60,320 bases of DNA, from contig JAFXZK010000084.1 of the NCBI GenBank assembly GCA_017541265.1, positions 68,217 through 128,536 of the forward strand, in the 5' to 3' direction. Origin of the DNA: Bacteroidaceae bacterium (GTDB lineage: Bacteria > Bacteroidota > Bacteroidia > Bacteroidales > Bacteroidaceae). Shown here one piece after another: positions 1 to 9,990 of the stretch; position 1 is the stretch's first letter, and every line of letters begins with the position of its first letter. The notes beneath the pieces are model-generated. The model searched no databases. It was not told the DNA's origin and saw only the letters and a list, made by a program, of their open reading frames with translations. The position numbers and the translations under genes are program-made.

Positions 1-98
1 CTACAATCTGGATTGACAATTCAAAACTACTTGTTCTGTTGCAGGTGTTGCGGTTGTTGCGGTTGCCTTCATTCCATATACTTCCATTGATTAACTCT

Positions 99-165
99 CA
101 ATTAGCCCTGTCTAATCGGGGTTTTAGACTTGCCTAATTGCGCACTTAGGCGTGCCTCCCTCGCG
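99..165. repeat. 22-bp-period degenerate palindromic array A
   Basis: About three units aligned at a 22-bp period share the pattern TTAG..TGCCTAATTGCGCAC..TTAGGCGTGCCT. The motif TAGGCGTGCC and its complement recur in the array at 42582-42659. No gene is seen in 1-321 apart from repeats and a promoter. Confidence 0.55.
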
Positions 166-202
166 GCGGCAGGTTTTAGGTCACGCTGAAAGCATTATTT
201 CC

Positions 203-268
203 TTGGATTTTGTCTGTTTTTGACGAATTATTTGTTTGGATTTTGTCTGTTTTTGACGAATTATTTGT
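203..268. repeat. 33-bp tandem duplication
   Basis: Two essentially identical 33-bp copies begin TTGGATTTTGTCTG at 203 and 236, with a 5-bp start of a third copy at 269. Each copy ends in ATTATTTG, which supplies the upstream TTTG box of the promoter for the ATPase gene. Confidence 0.85.
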
Positions 269-295
269 TTGGATAATATATTCTCCGTATCTTTG
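264..295 (+). promoter_or_regulatory. Bacteroidetes-type promoter of the AAA gene
   Basis: TTTG at 264-267, a 20-bp spacer, and TATCTTTG at 288-295 match the known Bacteroidetes consensus TTTG-N17-23-TAnnTTTG. Transcription would start near 302, which favours the ATG at 322 over the TTG at 313. Confidence 0.7.
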
Positions 296-321
296 CAACC
301 AGTTTCAAGAGTTTGACCATT

Positions 322-1707
322 ATGTATTATCCAAGACTCATAGACACATATTTGTCCGAATGGGCTTCGCGCACGACGCACAAGCCCCTGCTTCTTCGCG
401 GTGCCAGACAAGTGGGCAAGTCGTCTGCCGCACGTCACTTGGGAGAGAGTTTCGAAAGTTTTGTAGAGATAAACTTTGAGAAGCAGTATGCCTATGGCAA
501 CTTGTTTCAAAGCGGAGATATTGATGTGAAAAGGATTGTCTCGCAGATAGCCGCTCTGACAGGAAAGCAAATTAAGCCTGGCGAAACGCTTTTGTTTCTT
601 GACGAGATACAAATGTGTCCCGAAGCGATTATGTCCTTGCGCTTTTTCAAAGAGGATATGCCCGATTTGCACGTCATAGCCGCAGGCTCGCTTCTGGAGT
701 TTGCGCTTGAAGAACTTCCCACATTCGGTGTTGGGCGCATACATTCTATGTTCATCTTCCCAATGACCTTCGACGAGTTCCTTATGGCAAACGGTGAGAA
801 TCTTTTGTTGGCAGCTCGTAAGATGTCGTCTTCCTCCCATCCACTTCCTTTGTCCCTATACAACAAACTGACAGAACTGTTGAGAACTTATATGCTTGTC
901 GGAGGTATGCCGGAAGCCGTTAGCAAATGGGTGGAGACACACGACTATCTTGCCTGTCAGGAAGTTCAGGACGACATTGTGGTAACGTATGAAGACGACT
1001 TCCCAAAATACAGAAAGAAAGTTGACCCGACGCTGCTTCGGCTGACCATGCGGAGTGCAGCGGTGCAGGCTACCCGTAAATTTGTCTATTCAGAGGTTGG
1101 AGGCGGCTATAAGTCCACAGACGTTAAGGAAGCTCTGGAATTGCTCACCCAAGCAGGGATATTGATACCAGTAACACATACAGCCGCCAACGGATTGCCA
1201 TTAGGAAGCGAAGCCGATACGTCATACCGTAAGATGCTGCTTCTTGATACAGGACTGATGCTTCGTCTGCTGAACATGACGACTGGCGATATTTCCGAAT
1301 TGATGGAGCACATACTGACAAGCGATGTCTCAGACCTTGCCAACAAAGGACCTATGGCGGAAACGATTGCCGGACTTGAACTGCTGCATTATCGTACACC
1401 AAACATCCGACATGAACTATACTATTGGCAACGTCAGGCAAAAAACTCGCAGGCAGAGGTGGATTACATTTCAAGCTACCGCCAGACTGTGCTGCCCATA
1501 GAAGTGAAGGCTGGCACACAGGGCGGAATGAAAAGCCTCTGGATGTTCATGCGCGAGAAGAAGCTCACAAGCGCTGTTAGATGCTCCTTAGAGAACTTCG
1601 GGACTTTTGACTATGAGGACAAAGACGACGGCGGAACCATTCGCCATGTACAGATATGCCCCCTGTATGCCATTTCCCAATTGGAAGCACTGTTCAGAGT
1701 GCCATGA
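322..1707 (+). CDS. AAA ATPase with DUF4143 (AAA_14/DUF4143 family)
   Basis: The 461-residue protein has a Walker A motif GARQVGKS at residues 27-34 and a Walker B motif LLFLDEIQ at 90-97, followed by the DUF4143 region. Its C-terminus carries EVDYI and, a few residues on, PIEVKAG, resembling the PD-(D/E)xK-like nuclease core common in this family. Biological role in the family is not established; members are abundant, mobile accessory genes in Bacteroidetes and archaea. The ATG at 322 lies 26 bases after the TATCTTTG box, while the alternative TTG at 313 lies nearly at the expected transcript start. The gene stands alone and converges on the peptide-modification operon, whose last stop is 20 bp away. 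Confidence 0.9.
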   Translation: MYYPRLIDTYLSEWASRTTHKPLLLRGARQVGKSSAARHLGESFESFVEINFEKQYAYGNLFQSGDIDVKRIVSQIAALTGKQIKPGETLLFLDEIQMCPEAIMSLRFFKEDMPDLHVIAAGSLLEFALEELPTFGVGRIHSMFIFPMTFDEFLMANGENLLLAARKMSSSSHPLPLSLYNKLTELLRTYMLVGGMPEAVSKWVETHDYLACQEVQDDIVVTYEDDFPKYRKKVDPTLLRLTMRSAAVQATRKFVYSEVGGGYKSTDVKEALELLTQAGILIPVTHTAANGLPLGSEADTSYRKMLLLDTGLMLRLLNMTTGDISELMEHILTSDVSDLANKGPMAETIAGLELLHYRTPNIRHELYYWQRQAKNSQAEVDYISSYRQTVLPIEVKAGTQGGMKSLWMFMREKKLTSAVRCSLENFGTFDYEDKDDGGTIRHVQICPLYAISQLEALFRVP

Positions 1708-1727
1708 GGCAAATGCTAATCCAACTT

Positions 1728-2009
1728 TTAGGCTAGTACAAGCAGTATCTCGCAGGTGTCGAAGTTAATCTCCCAGTTGCCGCCTTCGGCAGATTCCCAT
1801 TTATATTTCTCTGCCATACGGTCCCACCAATTTTGGAACTTCCTGCCAGTTTCGCCCATGTCTTTCACAAGCTTCTCGTACAGCTCAGCATTATCTGCTG
1901 TCAGAATCTTTGCCAGTTCGTTCAGTCCGTTGCGACGTTCGAAAAGTGTCTGTATCTCTGCACGTTCTTCGGGTGTCACTTGCCCTACAGTTTTCTTTGT
2001 CATTGCCAT
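1728..2009 (-). CDS. CXXX repeat peptide modification system protein
   Basis: A 93-residue, signal-less protein beginning MAMTKKTVGQVTPEERAEIQ. I recognise the pattern (KTVGxVTPEER, LFERRNGL, KFQNWWDxMAEKYKW, GGNWEIxFDTCEI) as the small accessory family that accompanies CXXX-repeat peptide maturases in Bacteroidetes. Its biochemical role is unknown; size and charge would fit a peptide-binding or chaperone role, but that is inference. It starts inside the 3' end of the maturase gene (10-bp overlap), so it is the last gene of the four-gene minus-strand operon. A second in-frame ATG lies two codons downstream and could be the true start. Confidence 0.8.
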   Translation of the reverse strand: MAMTKKTVGQVTPEERAEIQTLFERRNGLNELAKILTADNAELYEKLVKDMGETGRKFQNWWDRMAEKYKWESAEGGNWEINFDTCEILLVLA

Positions 2010-2953
2010 GTGTCTCTTTTGTCAAAGGGATCTAAATAATCTATCTCTTTAATATCCTCCTGCTCAGGCAGGAAGGTTCCGTGCTTGCGAATGTTGTTGA
2101 GCAACTCTCGGCTGGCATTGCGCTCTAAGTGAGCCAACACACATTGCTCGTGCGACGGGGTGTTCACTTCAAGTGTCGTCTTGCGGTTGAGCCAGATGCA
2201 GCGTTTGCATTGGTAAGCATCACAATGGCGGCAGATGGGCGCATATTCCAGTTTGTAGAGTTGCTTGTTCTTGATATCGAGTCCGTTCTCAAGGTCGCCG
2301 ATGCTATCTGACTCGTCTTCATAGAAGAAGGCAGGGCAGACATAGAACTTCCCATTGGGCGCAAGCGTGATGGTCGTGTCACCAGCTCCGCAATTATTCA
2401 TCTTCTGGAGCATCATGCGGTCGGTGAGGAGGTTCAGTTGAGGAGCCTTCCCTTCGACATACAGCTTCTCTATATGTTTTGCAAGAGCACTTAGCAGTTG
2501 CTTGTACTTTTCGAAGTCCTCATCTGTAAATGTCTCTACATCTGTTAAAACGACATTCAGCCTTGGCACATTCTCCAAAGCACAAACGATGTCTGCTTCG
2601 CTATTGAAGAGGTTCTGCTTGTCGGTTCTCCACACGACAGGCACTTCTGCTTTGATGTCCTTGATGCTTTCTGTCACCCATACATCAGCATCCATTCTCC
2701 CCTCCTTCAGGAGGGACTGGGGGAGGCTCTTTATCTTCGAGTGGTCAATGCTTTCTATCACTTCCGCATATTCCTTGGAAAGTTCTTTGTCAGGATAAAC
2801 ATACTGAATCATCAGGTTCTCCATCATGCCGAAGCGGATGCCTTGCCTTAATGTTTCAAGCGGCATCAAGCCCCCTCCCCGCTCCCCCTTTGGGGGAGTG
2901 CTACAGAACGAAACACTCTCTTTGTCTAATAATATAATAAGGTATTGCAGCAT
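2000..2953 (-). CDS. CXXX repeat peptide maturase (SPASM-like, no radical SAM core)
   Basis: This 317-residue protein lacks the CxxxCxxC radical SAM motif but has a SPASM-like cysteine region in its second half: NNCGAG, then FYVCPAFF, then CRHCDAYQCKRC and a final HEQC. Such a layout suggests auxiliary Fe-S clusters. I recognise it as the partner maturase seen next to CXXX-repeat radical SAM enzymes; the exact reaction is unknown. It begins 5 bp after the radical SAM stop and overlaps the next gene by 10 bp, so translation is probably coupled. Two stretches look like in-frame insertions of G/C-rich palindromic repeats: residues 18-30 ([16 protein letters not shown] 2868-2902) and residues 76-87 (SLPQSLLKEGRM, DNA 2698-2726). 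Confidence 0.8.
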   Translation of the reverse strand: MLQYLIILLDKESVSFCSTPPKGERGGGLMPLETLRQGIRFGMMENLMIQYVYPDKELSKEYAEVIESIDHSKIKSLPQSLLKEGRMDADVWVTESIKDIKAEVPVVWRTDKQNLFNSEADIVCALENVPRLNVVLTDVETFTDEDFEKYKQLLSALAKHIEKLYVEGKAPQLNLLTDRMMLQKMNNCGAGDTTITLAPNGKFYVCPAFFYEDESDSIGDLENGLDIKNKQLYKLEYAPICRHCDAYQCKRCIWLNRKTTLEVNTPSHEQCVLAHLERNASRELLNNIRKHGTFLPEQEDIKEIDYLDPFDKRDTWQ

Positions 2954-2958
2954 GGCGG

Positions 2959-4164
2959 TCAGCAGATTTCAGGTTTAACTTCGCATTTATTCTTTTCGAA
3001 CTCTTCGCGCTCACCTTCCAATTCCAGTTTACGATAGAGCTTGTTCCAATAGTAGTTGTTGGCACGGACGCGAGCCTTGTGCATCTTGCAGATAGCTGTT
3101 GCACGCTGATAGATGGTGTTCGTCTCTGCTGCATCATAATTCTCCCCTTGACACCAGGCACAGCCGCTTGCCACCTCGCAGTCAATGCATTCCTTCGGGC
3201 TTTGTGTTATTCGGTCGAGTGTTAGGAAGGGACGTAGCTTATTCTTGTCAATGCCATCGTAGATGTTGCCAATAATGATAGGTTTCTTGCTTCGAAGCGA
3301 ATATCCTGCAAAACGCATACAAGGATAGAAATTACCTGTCGCATCAATAGCTAGCATTTGGCCTGCTCCGCACCAAGTAGTGTTTTGCGTTTTCGGATTA
3401 AGCGGTTTTCCTATTGTTTCGAGGAAGAAAGAACAATTATGATTTTTATAGTATCCTTTGCAAATAATTACATCTGCCAATGAAAGTAATTGTTCTTCAA
3501 AAAGTATATCATCTCCATCTTTCCATACATCTTCAAATACACAATTAATATGAATATCCTTTATCCCCAATTTATATAGATGTAATACACTTTCTATAAT
3601 ATATGGAATATCCGGACTACTTATCGTTACTTTCGTTCCTGCATTTTTGAATTGTTTAAGATAAAGAGGAATATTTTTTACTACGTCATCATAGGAACCT
3701 TTGCCATCTTTCCCTTTATAGATTCTATTTAAATCATGCTTCTTTTTAGTACCATCAATAGTGATACCTATACTTAGGTGTTCCTGATTCTTTTTAATGA
3801 AATTTTGCACCTTTTCTGTATGGTAATTTATGCCATTGGTAGAGAAAGAAAAACGATAAGAGTTAAACCAATGATGATTCCGTCGGTACATCTCTGTTTT
3901 TATATAGTCACAAATCTTATCAATTAGGTCTATCTCTAAAAAAGGCTCCCCTCCAATAAAATCCCAAGTTACACTTTCCTCACGAAACTCCTGTTCGTTA
4001 TTGAGAACATAGTCTATAGCCTGTTTCGCAATTTCCCAAGTCATTCGCTCTTTTGAGTTCTTCCCAACAAGATAACAATATTTGCAGGCTAATTGGCAAT
4101 CTTTCGTAACTATGAATATTATATTTTTGTTTTTCCCTGTTTGAACTTTAGTATTTTGATTCAT
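2959..4164 (-). CDS. Radical SAM/SPASM peptide maturase, CXXX-repeat target family
   Basis: A 401-residue radical SAM enzyme. C23, C27 and C30 form the CxxxCxxC motif (DCQLACKYC) that binds the SAM-cleaving 4Fe-4S cluster, followed by IGGEPFLE, the SAM-binding GGE motif. The C-terminal SPASM domain has CGAGQ, FYPCMRF, CIDCEVASGCAWCQGENY and a final C, consistent with auxiliary clusters. Family knowledge assigns such enzymes to modification of ribosomal peptides with CXXX repeats; thioether or C-C crosslinking is plausible but not shown. The ATG at 4164 is preferred, since the reading frame upstream offers only a TTG. The gene follows the precursor with a strong hairpin between, and is AT-richer in its first two thirds than its neighbours. 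Confidence 0.85.
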   Translation of the reverse strand: MNQNTKVQTGKNKNIIFIVTKDCQLACKYCYLVGKNSKERMTWEIAKQAIDYVLNNEQEFREESVTWDFIGGEPFLEIDLIDKICDYIKTEMYRRNHHWFNSYRFSFSTNGINYHTEKVQNFIKKNQEHLSIGITIDGTKKKHDLNRIYKGKDGKGSYDDVVKNIPLYLKQFKNAGTKVTISSPDIPYIIESVLHLYKLGIKDIHINCVFEDVWKDGDDILFEEQLLSLADVIICKGYYKNHNCSFFLETIGKPLNPKTQNTTWCGAGQMLAIDATGNFYPCMRFAGYSLRSKKPIIIGNIYDGIDKNKLRPFLTLDRITQSPKECIDCEVASGCAWCQGENYDAAETNTIYQRATAICKMHKARVRANNYYWNKLYRKLELEGEREEFEKNKCEVKPEIC

Positions 4165-4196
4165 AGAAATTACATAAAAAATGAGAAACAAGTGGT

Positions 4197-4222
4197 GTCA
4201 TTGAGGGAATTCCCTCAATGAC
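4197..4222 (-). promoter_or_regulatory. Perfect intercistronic palindrome between precursor and radical SAM genes
   Basis: A 26-bp perfect palindrome with half-site GTCATTGAGGGAA sits 8 bp after the precursor stop and 32 bp before the maturase ATG. It lacks a T-run, so it looks more like an mRNA stabiliser, processing site or partial terminator. Such a site would let the precursor be made in excess of the enzymes. Confidence 0.65.
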
Positions 4223-4230
4223 ATTCTAAC

Positions 4231-4494
4231 TTACCAAGCTCTCCACTTACATGCATCTACATAACAATCATCATCACATGTTCCTGAACATGAATTACGG
4301 CATGTCCCAGTGCATCCTGTAGAACAGCTACCAGAACAATCTCGACACCCGATATCATCGCCATCTTTTTTACATGAAGACAAGATCGTTAAGCCCAGCG
4401 ACGTGAATGCCAAAATAGGTAATGCCCCTTTTGCTGCATTCTTGAAAAACTCCCTTCGCGATTGGAGTCCTTCGTTCTTTTCGTTTTCCTTCAT
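4231..4494 (-). CDS. CXXX-repeat peptide precursor with Tat/lipobox leader
   Basis: An 87-residue precursor. Residues 12-17 (SRREFF) form a twin-arginine motif, followed by a hydrophobic stretch to residue 40 and a lipobox LSSC with Cys41. The core, residues 50-82, has Cys at 50, 53, 57, 61, 65, 69, 73, 77 and 82: seven of these are spaced exactly four apart, giving C-SGS-C-STG-C-TGT-C-RNS-C-SGT-C-DDD-C. The peptide ends in KWRAW. This matches the known target type of CXXX-repeat maturases, encoded directly downstream. The leader suggests export by Tat after cytoplasmic modification and lipid anchoring at Cys41; this is inference. The mature activity is unknown. Confidence 0.85.
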   Translation of the reverse strand: MKENEKNEGLQSRREFFKNAAKGALPILAFTSLGLTILSSCKKDGDDIGCRDCSGSCSTGCTGTCRNSCSGTCDDDCYVDACKWRAW

Positions 4495-4563
4495 AACATT
4501 AGAAGTTTTAGTACCTATGAACTCCCACAGTCGGCGTGAATAATGATGTTAAGGTCTGGAAAC

Positions 4564-4601
4564 AAAAAAGGCATGGGAGTTACTACTTCTCGCCCATCCC
4601 C
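4564..4601 (-). terminator. Intrinsic terminator at the end of the leader RNA, with a possible competing pairing
   Basis: On the minus strand GGGGATGGGC..GTAACTCCCATGCC forms a hairpin followed by six Ts (4564-4569). The hairpin segment AACTCCCA (complement of 4574-4581) can instead pair with TGGGAGTT encoded at 4520-4527 downstream, which is what a termination switch would need. Confidence 0.7.
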
Positions 4602-4904
4602 AACTTCAGGCTCTCGCATTGCCTCACTTCAAGGATAAGCAACGCAGCCAGCCCACGCCAAGTGATTATATAGGCAACATTACGCTATACATATATTATA
4701 TAGCTCATGCTGGGATATAATCCACCCACGCAGACGTCCCGTTGCATTATCTTCTGTGAAGTGATTCAAACTTGCGAGATTTGAAGTCGCAGAATGATAA
4801 CGTTCGTAAACGCCTTTTCCCTTTGGCTGTCCTTACAAACGGTGTTCTCAGCCGCAGAATTCCATTAAGATTTTGGCCCGCCTTGCCACAAAAGGCTAGC
4901 TTGG
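4564..4904 (-). ncRNA. Structured leader or small RNA upstream of the CXXX peptide operon
   Basis: No ORF explains this stretch, but read on the minus strand it has a promoter directly upstream, many local inverted repeats and a terminator at its end. Helices visible include GCCTT/AAGGC, GGCTG/CAGCC, CTTCAAA/TTTGAA, GCTATA/TATAGC and GCGTTGC/GGCAATGC nested in GGCT/AGCC. It lacks the hallmark sequences of tmRNA, RNase P RNA or the TPP and cobalamin riboswitches. It could be a free small RNA or a cis-acting leader controlling the peptide operon 70 bp downstream. I could not assign a family. Confidence 0.6.
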
Positions 4905-4910
4905 TCGATG

Positions 4911-4940
4911 CAAAGTTACAAAAAAATGTAATACGACAAA
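4911..4940 (-). promoter_or_regulatory. Promoter of the leader RNA and peptide operon
   Basis: Minus-strand TAACTTTG (4911-4918) with TTTG (4937-4940) 18 bp upstream. It is the only good Bacteroidetes-type promoter seen before the precursor gene, so the operon may depend on read-through of the 4564-4601 terminator. Confidence 0.65.
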
Positions 4941-5047
4941 AACTTTAGGGGAGAAAAATGTTTCCCCCCTTTGTTTTTCTTGTTTTTGAATAAGGATTGT
5001 AGATTATGCCATACCATGGAGATGGAACTGAACAAAGTTCCAAGCCA

Positions 5048-6052
5048 CTATTGGTCGAAGGCGTTCAGGAGGCGTTCTTTCTCGGCCTGGGTGATGGGAA
5101 TGATTGTGCCGTGGCGTGGGGTGAACTTGCCCTTTGTTTCCGTGTTCTGCACGAACTGGAAGGTCTTCAGGTCTTCCGAGCGACAGAACTGGTAGTGGTG
5201 GTTGCCGTAGCAGTCGTACATGATAATCCAGCTCTTGCCGTCGATGGTCTTGCACACGCCGACGCCCTCCACGGCCTCCTTCGTCTGCTCCACATTGCCC
5301 TCCAGCATCTGCCATTTGTCGGTCAGCTGCTTGGCGACAGCCTGGTAGATGCCACGACCGGACTCCTGCTTGTAGAAGAGGTGGTAGAGCTGGTCGGCCT
5401 CGTTAAAGACAATGTCGCCATCGATGGTGGCGTTGCCGGCATCAAAGAGCCACTTGGGTTCGCCCTCCAAGTCGGTGAAGTCCTTGTTGGCGTACTGGTA
5501 GTAGATTTTGTCGTATGAGTCGCTGTCGCTGGTACGCAGGGAATAGAACACCATGTATTTCTTTGCCTTGTGGTCGTAGATGGTCTCGGGTGCCCAGACG
5601 CGGATGACGTTCTTCCATGTCTTCGTGTAGCGCGTTGGGAAGTTGACGGTCGAGTGCTGCCAGTGGACGAGGTCGGTCGATTTCAGCAGCACGATGCCTC
5701 GGTTGCTGGCCCATCCCAGTGATGAGCGCATATCGGTGCAGACCATGTAGAACGTCTTGCCGTCCTCGCACCGCAGGATATGCGGGTCGCGCACGCATTG
5801 CGTCAGGGCGATGGTGTCGCTCTCGATGACAGGTCGCCCGCCGTTCAGTGGCGTGTAGTTGTAGCCGTCGTCGCTCAGGGCGTAACATATCTGCTCGTCC
5901 TCGGGGGCGTTGCTATTGAAATACGTGAACAGGTAGGCCACCATCTCGCCGGAGGGCTTGGCCTTGCCGGAGGCAGACTTCTTGCTGCCTGCCGCCATCG
6001 TAGTCGACAGCAAACACAGTGCTGTCAGAATCAGGAACAATTTAGATTTCAT
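5048..6052 (-). CDS. GH43-like glycoside hydrolase
   Basis: A 334-residue protein with a signal peptide (MKSKLFLILTALCLLSTTMAA) and a five-bladed beta-propeller look: repeated WxxxxxDLVHW/EDLKTF and IYDHKAKKYMVFYS type blade motifs. VRDPHIL offers the catalytic-base Asp pattern, RVWAPET a conserved second motif, and IDGDIV/EGVGVCK later acidic residues. GH43 and related clans remove arabinose, xylose or galactose side groups; the specificity here cannot be told. It starts 36 bp after the sulfatase stop, so both are probably one transcript acting on a sulfated or decorated glycan in the periplasm or outside. Confidence 0.7.
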   Translation of the reverse strand: MKSKLFLILTALCLLSTTMAAGSKKSASGKAKPSGEMVAYLFTYFNSNAPEDEQICYALSDDGYNYTPLNGGRPVIESDTIALTQCVRDPHILRCEDGKTFYMVCTDMRSSLGWASNRGIVLLKSTDLVHWQHSTVNFPTRYTKTWKNVIRVWAPETIYDHKAKKYMVFYSLRTSDSDSYDKIYYQYANKDFTDLEGEPKWLFDAGNATIDGDIVFNEADQLYHLFYKQESGRGIYQAVAKQLTDKWQMLEGNVEQTKEAVEGVGVCKTIDGKSWIIMYDCYGNHHYQFCRSEDLKTFQFVQNTETKGKFTPRHGTIIPITQAEKERLLNAFDQ

Positions 6053-6088
6053 ATCAAAGTAAGTAAAAAGGTTAAGTATTCTCGAATC

Positions 6089-7894
6089 CTATGGCAGGGT
6101 GATGGGGAAGAGGGGGCTGTCGGTATGTTCCCGATGGACGATGCCGATGAGTTCGGCGAGTTTGTCGGGGTACTTGTCCTTGAGGTCGTTGTCCTCGTGG
6201 ATGTCGGTCGAGAGGTCGTAGAGGAAGGGAGTGCCCTGGCTGACGACAAGCTTCCAGTCGCCCTTTCGTACGCCAATCACCTGTGTGCCGCCGTCGCTCA
6301 TCTCCCAATAGAGGAAGTCGTGCTGGCGCTGCTTGCGAGGCTTGCCAAGCATCGTTGGGCAGAAGGAGATGCCGTCGAAGAGCTGCCCAGACCCTCTCCC
6401 AGCCTCTCCCTTGTAGGGAGAGGAGTAGTTACTGTACCCCTGACATAAACCATCTGCCCCTCTCCCTACAAGGGAGAGGTTGGGAGAGGGTCTGGAGGCC
6501 GTGCTCCGGCTATGTTCCTTTATCTCTTTCTTCGAAAAGGCTCCGCTGTATTCCATAAAGGTGGACATGAGGTCGTAGAAGGCGAGCTGGTGGTCGCTGA
6601 CGGTTCCTTTCGGGATGCCTGCGCCCCAGCAGATGAAGGGGATGCGGATGCCGCCCTCGTAGGTGCTGCGCTTGATGCCGCGCAGCTTGCCGTCGCGCCC
6701 GAAGAAGCTCGGGTCTGCTCCGCCCTCCTCGTGCGGGCCGTTGTCGCTGGTGAAGATGACGAGCGTGTTCTTGTCAAGTCCCTTTGCTTTGAGTTTCTCC
6801 AATATCTCGCCGACGTAAGCATCGAGGCGCGTTATCATGGCCGCAAACTGGGCGTGCTTGTCCTCGCCGCCATAGTACCAGCTCCAAGCATCTGTCTTAT
6901 AGGCACGTTCCTCGCTGGCGGGAAAGACTCCGTGGTAGTGCTCCACGATACTGTCATTCAGCTGCCATAGCTCTGCATGAGGCAGGGTGTAGGTGAAGAT
7001 GCCGAGGAAAGGCTCGTCCTTCTCTTGACGGTCGAGCCATTCGAGCGCATAGCGATGAATGAGGTCGGCGGAGTATTGAGGACGGTCGGCATAAGAAGCT
7101 CCAGCCTCCTCCAAACCTCCCCCTGAAGGGAGAGGCTTAATTCCCCCCTTCCCTTTAGGGGAGGGGTTGGGGGAGAGGCTTGGATAGTGGATATTCTGCT
7201 CCATCACCTCTGCCACAAGATGCGTGTCGCCCCGGCCTTCGGGGTCGTAACGGTTCAGGAAGTTGGGATAGTAGGTATGCGCCTGGAACTGGCAGACAGG
7301 ACCATAGTAGCAGTCGATGCCCCGGAGGTTAGGCAGGGAGCAGGAAGAGCTTTCGCGGCTCTTGCTGGTGTCCGTGTTGCCGTCGGGCAGCTTTGCGTAT
7401 GTGTCGGGATAGTCATAGTTCCAATAGCCGCCGGCCCACTTGCCGAACATGCCTGTGCGGTAGCCCTTCGCCTTGAAGAGTTCGGGAATGATGGGGTGCG
7501 TCATGTCGTAAGGCTCCTGCCCAATGACGTAGTAGTCGGCATTCTCGCCAAACATGTTCTGCCTGAGCACCGAGCCGCCCCAATACTCTTTGTTGCCACG
7601 AATCTTGGCGTGGCCCGTGTGCTGACCTGTCATGAAGGAGCAGCGGCTGGGTGCACTCACGGGACAACCGGCGTAGGCTTGCGTGAAGCGCATCCCTTCT
7701 TCCGCCATGCGGTCGATGCAAGGCGTAGAGATGTACTTCTGCCCATAGCAGCCCAGGTCGCCATAACCCATGTCGTCACACATTATATATATTATATTAG
7801 GGTGACCCGACTTGGCGAACATCGCAAGAGGCAATGTGCCGAGCATAAGAGACCCCCCAATCCCCTTTAGGGGGAGTATTGGTTTATAGTTCAT
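6089..7894 (-). CDS. Secreted S1-family sulfatase (serine-type), carrying repeat-derived insertions
   Basis: A 601-residue arylsulfatase-like enzyme. The metal-binding Asp pair D40-D41 (MCDDMGYGD) and the modification motif SAPSR at 80-84 identify a serine-type sulfatase, in which S80 must be oxidised to formylglycine by an anSME enzyme not seen here. Later motifs TSDNGPHEEGG and LRGIKRSTYEGGIR are typical. At least three stretches look foreign and coincide with G/C-rich palindromes: near residues 5-16 (PILPLKGIGG), near 238-264 (LSPNPSPKGKGG) and near 467-502 (RPSPNLSLVGRG with SSPYKGEAGRG). They are in frame without stops, so the protein may still fold with extra loops. A TATCTTTG box at 7951-7958 lies upstream. 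Confidence 0.85.
   Translation of the reverse strand: MNYKPILPLKGIGGSLMLGTLPLAMFAKSGHPNIIYIMCDDMGYGDLGCYGQKYISTPCIDRMAEEGMRFTQAYAGCPVSAPSRCSFMTGQHTGHAKIRGNKEYWGGSVLRQNMFGENADYYVIGQEPYDMTHPIIPELFKAKGYRTGMFGKWAGGYWNYDYPDTYAKLPDGNTDTSKSRESSSCSLPNLRGIDCYYGPVCQFQAHTYYPNFLNRYDPEGRGDTHLVAEVMEQNIHYPSLSPNPSPKGKGGIKPLPSGGGLEEAGASYADRPQYSADLIHRYALEWLDRQEKDEPFLGIFTYTLPHAELWQLNDSIVEHYHGVFPASEERAYKTDAWSWYYGGEDKHAQFAAMITRLDAYVGEILEKLKAKGLDKNTLVIFTSDNGPHEEGGADPSFFGRDGKLRGIKRSTYEGGIRIPFICWGAGIPKGTVSDHQLAFYDLMSTFMEYSGAFSKKEIKEHSRSTASRPSPNLSLVGRGADGLCQGYSNYSSPYKGEAGRGSGQLFDGISFCPTMLGKPRKQRQHDFLYWEMSDGGTQVIGVRKGDWKLVVSQGTPFLYDLSTDIHEDNDLKDKYPDKLAELIGIVHREHTDSPLFPITLP
6389..6493. repeat. Inverted pair of G/C-rich REP-like elements inside the sulfatase gene
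   Basis: Two roughly 35-bp copies starting AGACCCTCTCCCAGCCTCTC face each other around a central 35-bp spacer, with almost perfect inverted symmetry. Each copy also contains its own small palindrome CTCCCTTGTAGGGAG. This doublet layout resembles REPIN elements. Confidence 0.8.
7103..7180. repeat. Second REP-like inverted pair inside the sulfatase gene
   Basis: AGCCTC..CTCCCCCTGAAGGGAG and CTTCCCTTTAGGGGAG..GAGAGGCT form an inverted doublet in frame. A related single element, CCAATCCCCTTTAGGGGGAG, lies at 7854-7874 in the signal-peptide region of the same gene. Confidence 0.75.
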
Positions 7895-7950
7895 AATTCA
7901 TAGTTCATGGTTGACACTACGTCGAGTGAAAACATCACGGTTTACCCGGG

Positions 7951-7958
7951 CAAAGATA
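7951..7958 (-). promoter_or_regulatory. Probable -7 box for the sulfatase-GH43 operon
   Basis: Minus-strand TATCTTTG about 57 bp before the sulfatase ATG. No clear TTTG box was found 20 bp further upstream. Confidence 0.45.
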
Positions 7959-8064
7959 CAAAAAGATTAAGGATTAGGGATTAGAGAATAGGGAAAAAGA
8001 ACAAAAAGAGCAAGAAAACATATAATTTTGAATTTAATAATTTTGAATTTTGAATTATATGTCG

Positions 8065-8072
8065 TACCTTTG
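8065..8072 (+). promoter_or_regulatory. -7 box of the tRNA-Leu gene
   Basis: TACCTTTG begins 20 bp before the tRNA 5' end. The region upstream is a run of GAATTTTGAATT-type AT repeats. Confidence 0.55.
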
Positions 8073-8084
8073 CACCCGTCTTAA

Positions 8085-8166
8085 GCCCCGATGGCGGAAT
8101 CGGTAGACGCGTCGGTCTCAAACACCGATAGGGAAACCTGTGCCGGTTCGACCCCGGCTCGGGGTA
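8085..8166 (+). tRNA. tRNA-Leu (anticodon CAA)
   Basis: The 82-nt sequence folds as a class II tRNA. The acceptor stem is GCCCCGA with TCGGGGT, the anticodon stem TCGGT/ACCGA encloses loop CTCAAAC with anticodon CAA at 8119-8121, a long variable arm follows, and the T-arm is GCCGGTTCGACCCCGGC. It decodes UUG. The 3' CCA is not encoded. The first pair would be G-U rather than G-C, a small oddity. Confidence 0.9.
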
Positions 8167-8167
8167 C

Positions 8168-8208
8168 GGAGCAGGCTGGTAGCCATGAGGCTATCGGCCT
8201 GCTTTGCT
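8168..8208 (+). terminator. Terminator after tRNA-Leu
   Basis: AGCAGG..AGCC-atga-GGCT..CCTGCT forms a long hairpin followed by TTGCTTTT. It lies 30 bp before the next ATG, so the downstream gene may be partly read through from the tRNA promoter. Confidence 0.65.
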
Positions 8209-8238
8209 TTTACGAAAAGAACAAAAAAAGAACGTACC

Positions 8239-9990
8239 ATGAAGACAAACATCCTCAAAACAATGGCCATGACGGTCATCCTGCTGTTCCTGACAGTCAG
8301 TGCCAGTGCTGCCGACTGGCTTTTCAAGGGCGGCAAAAGCAAGTATCAGATTGTCGTTTCTGCCGAAGCCTCAACGTCAGAACAGACGGCTGCACGAGAG
8401 TTGCAGCAGTATATCGGGCAGATGAGCGGCGTGCAGCTGCCCATTACGTCCGACCTGAAAGCAAGCAGGCGCAGCATCTTCGTGGGCTACAACGAGCGCG
8501 TGGCTGCCTTGACCGGCGCACAGCAACCAGAGGCCAACGACGAGAGCTTCACCTATCGAACCATCGGGCACGACCTGCTCATCTGGGGCGGCTCAGGACG
8601 CGGCACGATGTACGGTGTCTTCACTTTCCTGGAACGTGAGCTGGGCATCCACTGGCTCACACCCAAATGTACCGTTGTGCCGACGCTCAAAGAATGGAAG
8701 CTGCCTCGGCTCGACCATAGCGAAAGCCCCTTCATCGGCTACCGCTACAGCAACTACTTCGTGGCTTCTGGCGTGCCGGAATGGAGCGCCCACACGCGCG
8801 AGAACATGAAATGGAGTCCTGCAACCAGCAACTACGGCAACATAGAGGCTTATTGGGGAGCGCACACCATGGAGTGGCTCGTTCCCGCGAAGGAATTCTT
8901 CGACTCCCATCCCGAGTACTTCTGCCTGCGCGACGGCAAGCGCTACGGCGGCTACGGACAGCTCTGCCTCTCCAATCCCGATGTTCTGGAGATATGCAAG
9001 ACACGCCTTACACAGCGAATGCGCGAGAATCCTCAATACCGCATCTACAGCCTCTCGCAGAACGACAACTTCCGTTTCTGCCAATGCGAGAAGTGCGCAG
9101 CCATTGAGGAGCAGTATGGCGGACATGCCGGCATCATCGTTTGGTTCGTCAACCAAGTGGCAGATGCCGTTCGCGACGAGTTCCCCGACAAGTACGTCGG
9201 CACCTTTGCTTACCAATACTCTCGCCAGCCGCCCATGGGCATCAAGCCCCGCGAGAATGTCGTCATCCGCCTGTGCAGCATCGAGTGCTGCTTCGCCCAT
9301 CCCTTAGATGCCGGCTGTCCGCAGAACGAGGCATTCATGCGCGACCTCAAGGGCTGGGCAGAGCTGGCACCGCACCTGTTCATCTGGGACTACATCGTCG
9401 ATTACGCACAATACATGGCTCCGTGGCCTAACTTCCAAGTGCTGGGGCCGAACATCAAGGTCTTCGGCAAGCATAAAGCCATCGGCATCTTCGAGGAAGC
9501 ACAGTACCAATCGGCTGGAGCGGAGTTCGATGAGATGAAAGCCTGGACGGTCAACCAGCTGCTATGGAACCCCGAGCAGGACGTAGATTCGCTGGTCAGC
9601 ATCTTCATCAAGGGCTACTACGGCCAGGCAGCGCCCCGCATCAAGGACTACTACGACCTGTGCCAAAGCCTCGTGAAGCCCGACATACACTACGGCATCT
9701 ACATCCGCGAGAACCACGAGATATACAGCGACGAGTTCATACAGGAAGCCTTTGCCATATTGCGCGAAGCACTCGAAATGGCAGAAACGGATGAGATACG
9801 CGAACGTGTGGACCGCGTCCGTATGCAGCCGCTCTATCTGCATTGCATGCGCCACAAGGCCGAGTCCCTGAAGGACGGCACATGGGCTGACCTCCTCCGC
9901 CTGATGAAGCAGTACAAGGCCATGCACCGCGAAGGACACCCCCAAGACAAGTTCATCCAGGACTTCGAGGCAGAAGCCAAGGGGAAATAG
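8239..9990 (+). CDS. DUF4838 secreted protein (GH67 N-domain-like glycan-active protein)
   Basis: A 583-residue protein with a signal peptide (MKTNILKTMAMTVILLFLTVSASAA). Residues about 35-150 resemble the GH67 N-terminal-type domain (ASTSEQTAARELQQYI, TSDLKASRRSIFVGYN, LLIWGGSGRGTMYGVFTFLE). The rest is the DUF4838 region with FCLRDGKRYGGYGQLCLSNPD, SLSQNDNFRFCQCEKC and FIWDYIVDYAQYMAPWPNF. The family is widespread in Bacteroidetes glycan loci; no activity is assigned with certainty. An upstream in-frame start at 8140 lies inside the tRNA and is rejected. The gene ends at a 22-bp repeat array that acts as its likely terminator. Confidence 0.85.
   Translation: MKTNILKTMAMTVILLFLTVSASAADWLFKGGKSKYQIVVSAEASTSEQTAARELQQYIGQMSGVQLPITSDLKASRRSIFVGYNERVAALTGAQQPEANDESFTYRTIGHDLLIWGGSGRGTMYGVFTFLERELGIHWLTPKCTVVPTLKEWKLPRLDHSESPFIGYRYSNYFVASGVPEWSAHTRENMKWSPATSNYGNIEAYWGAHTMEWLVPAKEFFDSHPEYFCLRDGKRYGGYGQLCLSNPDVLEICKTRLTQRMRENPQYRIYSLSQNDNFRFCQCEKCAAIEEQYGGHAGIIVWFVNQVADAVRDEFPDKYVGTFAYQYSRQPPMGIKPRENVVIRLCSIECCFAHPLDAGCPQNEAFMRDLKGWAELAPHLFIWDYIVDYAQYMAPWPNFQVLGPNIKVFGKHKAIGIFEEAQYQSAGAEFDEMKAWTVNQLLWNPEQDVDSLVSIFIKGYYGQAAPRIKDYYDLCQSLVKPDIHYGIYIRENHEIYSDEFIQEAFAILREALEMAETDEIRERVDRVRMQPLYLHCMRHKAESLKDGTWADLLRLMKQYKAMHREGHPQDKFIQDFEAEAKGK

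Follow-up and report, generated by a model that had tools for sequence, protein, structure and literature searches.

We analysed a 60,320-nucleotide stretch of DNA from a Bacteroidaceae bacterium (assembly GCA_017541265.1, contig JAFXZK010000084.1, positions 68,217 to 128,536; hereafter the window), in which a CXXX-repeat peptide system occupies positions 1728-4494 of the minus strand. A reading made from the letters alone (the sequence-only reading) had described here an 87-residue peptide with SRREFF, LSSC and seven cysteines at a spacing of four, accompanied by a radical SAM/SPASM enzyme, a SPASM-like partner without the radical SAM core, and a small accessory protein. Re-reading of the open reading frames (ORFs) confirmed the precursor, and the three accompanying proteins all exceeded their NCBIfam cut-offs. 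The features of the locus, with NCBIfam scores, are:

4911..4940, minus strand: Bacteroidales-type promoter-like site, TTTG-N18-TAACTTTG
4492..4930, minus strand: conserved structured leader RNA 5' of the precursor, with a terminator-like stem and U-run
4231..4494, minus strand: precursor, 87 aa, from ORF reading; TIGR04117 40.3 bits, under the cut-off of 50
2959..4164, minus strand: radical SAM/SPASM maturase, 401 aa; TIGR04115 624.9 bits, cut-off 350
2000..2953, minus strand: TIGR04119 'CXXX repeat peptide maturase', 317 aa; 251.9 bits, cut-off 150
1728..2009, minus strand: TIGR04116 small accessory protein (CXXX repeat modification system protein), 93 aa; 103.6 bits, cut-off 50
313..1707, plus strand: AAA_14/DUF4143 ATPase gene, a convergent neighbour outside the CXXX system

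All four genes of the system are open, and their close spacing on one strand (gaps of 66 and 5 nt, then a 10-nt overlap, in the order precursor, maturase, TIGR04119, TIGR04116) indicates that 1728-4494 is probably one operon; a TTG at 4191 provides a further open start for the maturase ORF. Since three of the four genes exceed NCBIfam cut-offs, the CXXX system is already catalogued and its gene families are named. New here are a near-invariant twin-arginine translocation (Tat) signal, a linkage to tatA-tatC, and a covarying leader RNA. We consider it likely that the radical SAM-modified CXXX-repeat peptide is made in the cytoplasm and exported in a folded state by Tat.

Within the window precursor, SRREFF occupies residues 12-17, an LP motif residues 25-26, and the LSSC lipobox residues 38-41, ending in Cys41. 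The ladder itself comprises Cys 53, 57, 61, 65, 69, 73, and 77 at exact spacing 4, and is flanked by Cys50 (three residues before) and Cys82 (five after), giving nine core cysteines. Tat signals follow the consensus S/T-R-R-x-F-L/F-K ahead of a hydrophobic stretch, and SRREFFK fits this motif. Against TIGR04117, the model of the CXXX repeat target protein, the precursor stayed under the cut-off at 40.3 bits (E 2.6e-10; 41.3 in another scan); only three of ten relatives' precursors that were scanned passed it (L034, L119, and L054).

To gather relatives, an alignment of six maturases was run once against named genomes, and the best 80 of 371 loci were kept. Bacteroidales labels are attached to 77 of the 80, mostly gut or rumen metagenome-assembled genomes; L051, L052, and L100 bear the labels Lachnospiraceae, Clostridia, and Clostridium, yet have Bacteroidales-like loci and probably represent misbinned contigs. 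Together with the window these loci form 81 sources, in which the maturase is not independent evidence because the loci were collected by it. CXXX ORFs (at least three overlapping CxxxCxxxC) on the operon strand numbered 146 and occurred in 79 of the 81 sources, so the Cys-ladder ORF of the window is not a product of chance. A loose pattern for any twin arginine (RR) preselected 141 of these ORFs; the five without RR were a spurious one (L043), one at a contig end (L068), and three leaderless fragments (L057, L089, and L104). Removal of four duplicates left 137 unique precursors, that of the window included. Within this preselected set, RRxF/L[FLIM] was found in 136 precursors and an LP-type motif also in 136, the first such motif lying 12 residues past the RR in 128. 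Consecutive cysteines in the repeats are spaced four residues apart in 2,289 of 2,573 cases, and the repeat part holds 7 to 73 cysteines (median 15). Between them Gly, Ser, Thr, Asn, and Lys predominate, with acids at 7-8% per position, in contrast to the C-X3-D/E of PapB substrates (PMC9413430). Other Tat-like ORFs found in the window's genome numbered only three, none with LP, too few to tell whether LP is common in its Tat signals generally.

The genes downstream point to the same export route. TIGR04116 is recognisable in 77 of the 80 named loci, and 57 of these 77 have a tatC ORF after it on the same strand; four of the 20 loci without tatC hold only 17 to 1,003 bases beyond, which leaves 57 of 73 that can be judged. 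A tatA gene was recognised in 56 of the 57 tatC loci, the exception (L080) having a frameshift at that place. The distance from the TIGR04116 stop to the tatA start is at most 80 nt in 53 of 56 loci and 490-748 nt in the other three; the median gap is 2.5 nt, and a 4-nt overlap occurs in 22 loci. With the tatC start set at the first Met of its ORF, tatA and tatC overlap in most loci, and the one tatA and two tatC products tested all scored above NCBIfam cut-offs. In the window, the AAA_14/DUF4143 gene abuts the operon at the place held by tatA-tatC in most relatives. Given the conserved RR motif (136 of 137) and tatA-tatC after TIGR04116 (57 of 77), Tat export, as the sequence-only reading had proposed, is strongly supported; on these sequence grounds it is very likely for the family and, with good but lower confidence, probable for the window peptide.

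A sample of 395 phylum genomes contained 6 with a maturase above the TIGR04115 cut-off, and a sample of 392 order genomes contained 10 (the window's own included). Among these ten, seven encode TatC inside the operon stretch; a further TatC was found elsewhere in five of the seven, and G726 and G439 showed no copy but that of the operon. A tree was built from 77 TatC proteins, 64 of them operon rows (the 57 loci and seven from further genomes); 54 operon TatCs form one clade (support 100/99) free of any other copy, and ten fall outside. A single lineage of operon TatCs was rejected, the operon label requiring five changes on the tree. Considering the ten outliers, the five changes, and long branches, the linkage probably arose, or copies were exchanged, more than once. 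TatC presence was also tried as a tracker of the CXXX system across the order and proved uninformative (328 of 392 genomes overall, 10 of 10 with the system).

The maturase has its CX3CX2C at residues 23-30, and seven further cysteines are kept in six aligned rows. The best-scoring other maturase model was that of PapB (NF047865; 204.9 bits, cut-off of 340 not reached), and the enzyme also scored under the cut-off against the thioether-forming SCIFF model. The locus resembles PapB/freyrasin ranthipeptides in its best other maturase score and in Cys-X3 periodicity. PapB, however, links Cys to Asp/Glu in C-X3-D/E (PMC9413430), whereas the residue at Cys +4 in the window precursor is Cys, Gly, Ser, or Ala, with D/E after none of ten cysteines. 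A further difference is that only 12 residues precede the TIGR04115 match, which leaves little room for a recognition domain; leader recognition is therefore likely performed by a partner of the maturase. The TIGR04119 protein lacks CX3CX2C; its seven SPASM-type cysteines and Cys17 are invariant in 44 of 44 aligned rows. Against solved structures it gave only a weak match, over its SPASM part, to 5wgg ('Radical SAM domain protein', E 0.018), a structure called CteB in PMC10352776, and the TIGR04116 protein gave nothing convincing against the sequences of solved structures (best E 0.11). A TIGR04119-TIGR04116 fusion in L119 (L120 looks alike) and a TIGR04115-TIGR04119 fusion in L137 argue that the three proteins act together, in one complex. 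Residues 20-28 of the TIGR04119 protein read PPKGERGGG (window 2870-2896, minus strand), and similar Pro/Gly/Arg-rich segments occur at the TIGR04119 N-terminus in L037, L068, L084, and L095.

The proposal of the sequence-only reading that cross-links or clusters are put in ahead of export is plausible, and thioether chemistry on the Cys ladder has about an even chance. The strongest alternative is that the ladder carries no cross-links and instead takes up metal or Fe-S clusters while still in the cytoplasm, giving a folded holo-protein that needs Tat and ends as a metal-binding lipoprotein. Cofactor-bearing proteins classically leave the cell by Tat, and both the 7 to 73 cysteines of the repeat parts and the eight invariant cysteines of TIGR04119 would suit such loading; the scores of the maturase on two thioether-forming models, PapB and SCIFF, speak against it, albeit both under cut-off. 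We regard metal loading as unlikely.

The sequence-only reading had further proposed a lipid anchor, which is supported for the window peptide and not for the family. LSSC fits the lipobox [LVI][ASTVI][GAS]C, Lgt is encoded in the window's genome (152.9 bits), and acidic residues follow Cys41. Across homologous precursors, the RR motif is conserved and the lipobox is not: a strict lipobox was present in 20 of 137 and another 14 were judged by eye, 34 in all against 103 precursors of the other kind, so the family as a whole does not follow a surface-anchored pattern. Automatic classes, which over-call lipoboxes, place lipobox and non-lipobox precursors together in 19 sources. Within 22-36 residues after the RR, the only range searched, 100 of the 103 non-lipobox precursors have an xxA cleavage-like site, at residue 31 in 70, and release from the inner membrane via this signal-peptidase-I-like site is expected for most family members. 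Acids number 2.6 on average among the seven residues that follow the lipobox Cys and 1.2 among those that follow the cleavage-like site in the other precursors (p 5e-10; the count for L050 is wrong, since the script used an earlier Cys). Bacteroidetes surface lipoproteins carry such an acidic stretch as an export signal, with the optimum C-X-K-(D/E)2-X (PMC5080379). The window shares the acids after the lipobox Cys and differs in its sequence from Cys41, CKKDGDD, which is near the optimum but not at it, and in its export by Tat, if our reading is right. From these features, lipidation at Cys41 is quite probable, and surface display of the window peptide is conceivable, though somewhat on the doubtful side; display is possible for it and a minority of relatives. 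Lipobox-only loci did not significantly coincide with loci lacking operon tatC (Fisher p 0.20, 68 loci). Some lipobox precursors contain long non-repeat segments (L035, L057, L077, L097, and L112); four of these five had no Pfam match, and L057 had a weak one to Lcl_C.

Upstream of the precursor, the DNA from the promoter-like site to the precursor start is conserved between genera. The promoter-like pattern had seven matches in the window versus 0.74 expected. The leader is approximately 400 nt long. A profile of 33 leaders matched the window (whose own place is L124), 53 of 80 named loci, and three of the nine loci from the order; no match was obtained in L119-L123 or L125. In all 53 named loci the leader shares the strand of the operon and precedes the first precursor recognised there. 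It ends at most 12 nt from the precursor start in 32 of them and 76 nt to 4.9 kb upstream in 21, usually with intervening ORFs, many for exported proteins. A recurrent family of apparently secreted proteins of ~170-230 aa is encoded between RNA and precursor in six of 18 loci compared (L040, L084, L089, L103, L109, and L110).

A structure of four helices and a pseudoknot pairs 94.6% of 1,395 cells in 45 aligned leaders, with two-sided changes in 19 of 31 pairs. Shuffles reached the observed values in 0 of 500 cases on four of five measures and in 11 of 500 for pair types, and slid versions of the structure paired 36-52%. Three further helices, each sharing columns with one of the first set, are likewise supported and pair 91.2% of 662 cells, with two-sided changes in 12 of 16 pairs; since that alignment also served to choose the helices, the counts lean toward them. 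One leader stem is followed by a U-run, and the leader is a candidate two-state attenuator or riboswitch-like RNA. Searches with Rfam 15 gave no match over 4492-4930 (window 1-9000, E up to 1; matches only at 6386-8207) and none, at gathering scores, in the leaders of eight loci. No second full copy was present in 1,836,257 of the genome's 3,240,122 bases, where the best other match was partial (E 0.08), and the RNA was absent from viral contigs (one exact pattern searched) and plasmids (blastn).

Taken together, the proposed sequence of events would run as follows. The TIGR04115 maturase, in complex with the cluster-bearing TIGR04119 protein and TIGR04116, would cross-link the Cys ladder, most likely through thioethers. 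The N-terminal segment would serve twice, its LP core in recognition by the enzymes and its RR motif as the Tat signal, and the modified, rigid peptide would then cross the membrane via Tat. In the window, the lipobox would have Cys41 lipidated and the peptide anchored, perhaps on the cell surface, whereas the signal-peptidase-I-like site would free the peptide in most relatives. Most relatives would use their dedicated downstream tatA-tatC; the window operon has no such pair and would therefore rely on the other TatC of its genome.

Several observations weigh against this proposal. No tatC was found in the fetched neighbourhood of the window operon, and 16 loci with enough DNA likewise have no operon tatAC. 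TatC is present in 328 of the 392 order genomes, so its presence alone is weak evidence, and the TatC tree combines the five label changes with a program warning of long branches. Maturase similarity selected the best 80 of 371 loci, so the conservation described is that of near relatives. The precursors of the distant relatives L121-L123 have neither RR nor a hydrophobic stretch, which suggests that the enzymes can act without a Tat signal. Finally, a PapB score under cut-off and the lack of C-X3-D/E mean that the PapB cross-link type is not transferable to the window.

The missing tatC also bears on a second alternative, in which decay has cost the window operon its exporter and no exported product is made. 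In its favour, G000:C34, the one other TatC found in this genome, does not belong to the main operon clade; the genome is 87% complete, and a second copy could be missed. Four open genes, the leader RNA and promoter-like site, and the retention of both RR motif and lipobox do not look like decay, which we think quite improbable.

A third alternative takes the RR segment solely as the leader of a ribosomally synthesized and post-translationally modified peptide (RiPP), with the hydrophobic stretch as a recognition element and export by another route. Precursors lacking both RR and lipobox, which the sequence-only reading had named as refuting its own proposal, occur only in L121-L123 and, tentatively, L137. 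Those of L121-L123 keep the LP core as RKTLPG or KKTLPG, alignable by eye with AKGALPI, and those of L123 and L121 are weakly similar to the whole window precursor (E 0.0012 and 0.0065), which favours a leader-only role; TIGR04116 was not found in L121-L123, nor was tatC in the fetched stretches of L121-L123 and L137. Such a role has against it the tatA-tatC genes of 57 of 77 loci and the xxA sites of 100 of 103 non-lipobox precursors, 70 at residue 31, and is very unlikely. An accidental housekeeping linkage of tatAC without any functional tie, to which the sole TatC copies of G726 and G439 and the 10 of 64 operon TatCs beyond the main clade might point, is scarcely credible given the second TatC in five of ten genomes, the exclusive clade of 54 operon copies, and the tight gaps and overlaps of tatA with TIGR04116.

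Elsewhere in the window, a 33-nt tandem duplicate is located at 194-259, just 5' of the AAA_14/DUF4143 gene. A 42-nt inverted repeat with a 25-nt spacer (6387-6495, 93% complementary) is in frame within ORF 6089-7894, sulfatase-like by eye only. It yields spurious microRNA matches, and has partial direct copies (75% similar) at 7143 and 7855; the Pro/Gly/Arg-rich TIGR04119 segments are perhaps in-frame palindromic elements of the same kind.

Among known systems, the NCBIfam CXXX-repeat system (TIGR04114, 04115, 04116, 04117, and 04119) is matched by three genes above cut-offs and by a Cys at every fourth residue, and differs in that the window precursor stays under the TIGR04117 cut-off. The Bacillus pairs TatAdCd and TatAyCy are likewise TatA-TatC pairs reserved for particular substrates; the pair described here differs in lying 3' of a peptide precursor and its maturation genes. 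More than one tatC locus occurs in about 5% of species (PMC3827258). In open-licence literature, searched by accessions or phrases, no paper on the CXXX-repeat system was found, nor any that ties a Tat pair or leader RNA to it. The main text of a 2023 survey of Bacteroidales RiPP clusters mentions neither Tat nor lipoprotein (PMC10352776). Titles on Tat with RiPP or radical SAM, among the matches listed, included no natural Tat-exported RiPP. For modified peptides, Tat has been considered in the engineering of lanthipeptide display, but preliminary attempts were unsuccessful (PMC5686179).

The picture in full, of radical SAM cross-linked Cys-ladder peptides with their own tatA-tatC translocon and a new, large two-state leader RNA, released from gut Bacteroidales or displayed on them as lipoproteins, is one we put forward tentatively, at slightly less than an even chance. 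RiPP export is usually pictured as the work of ABC transporters on small peptides. If the picture is true, the cross-linked product would be folded enough to require a folded-protein exporter, and the family may be a natural case of a Tat-exported modified peptide. The locus offers access to a little-studied product from Bacteroidales of the rumen and gut, and to a structured RNA not yet catalogued.

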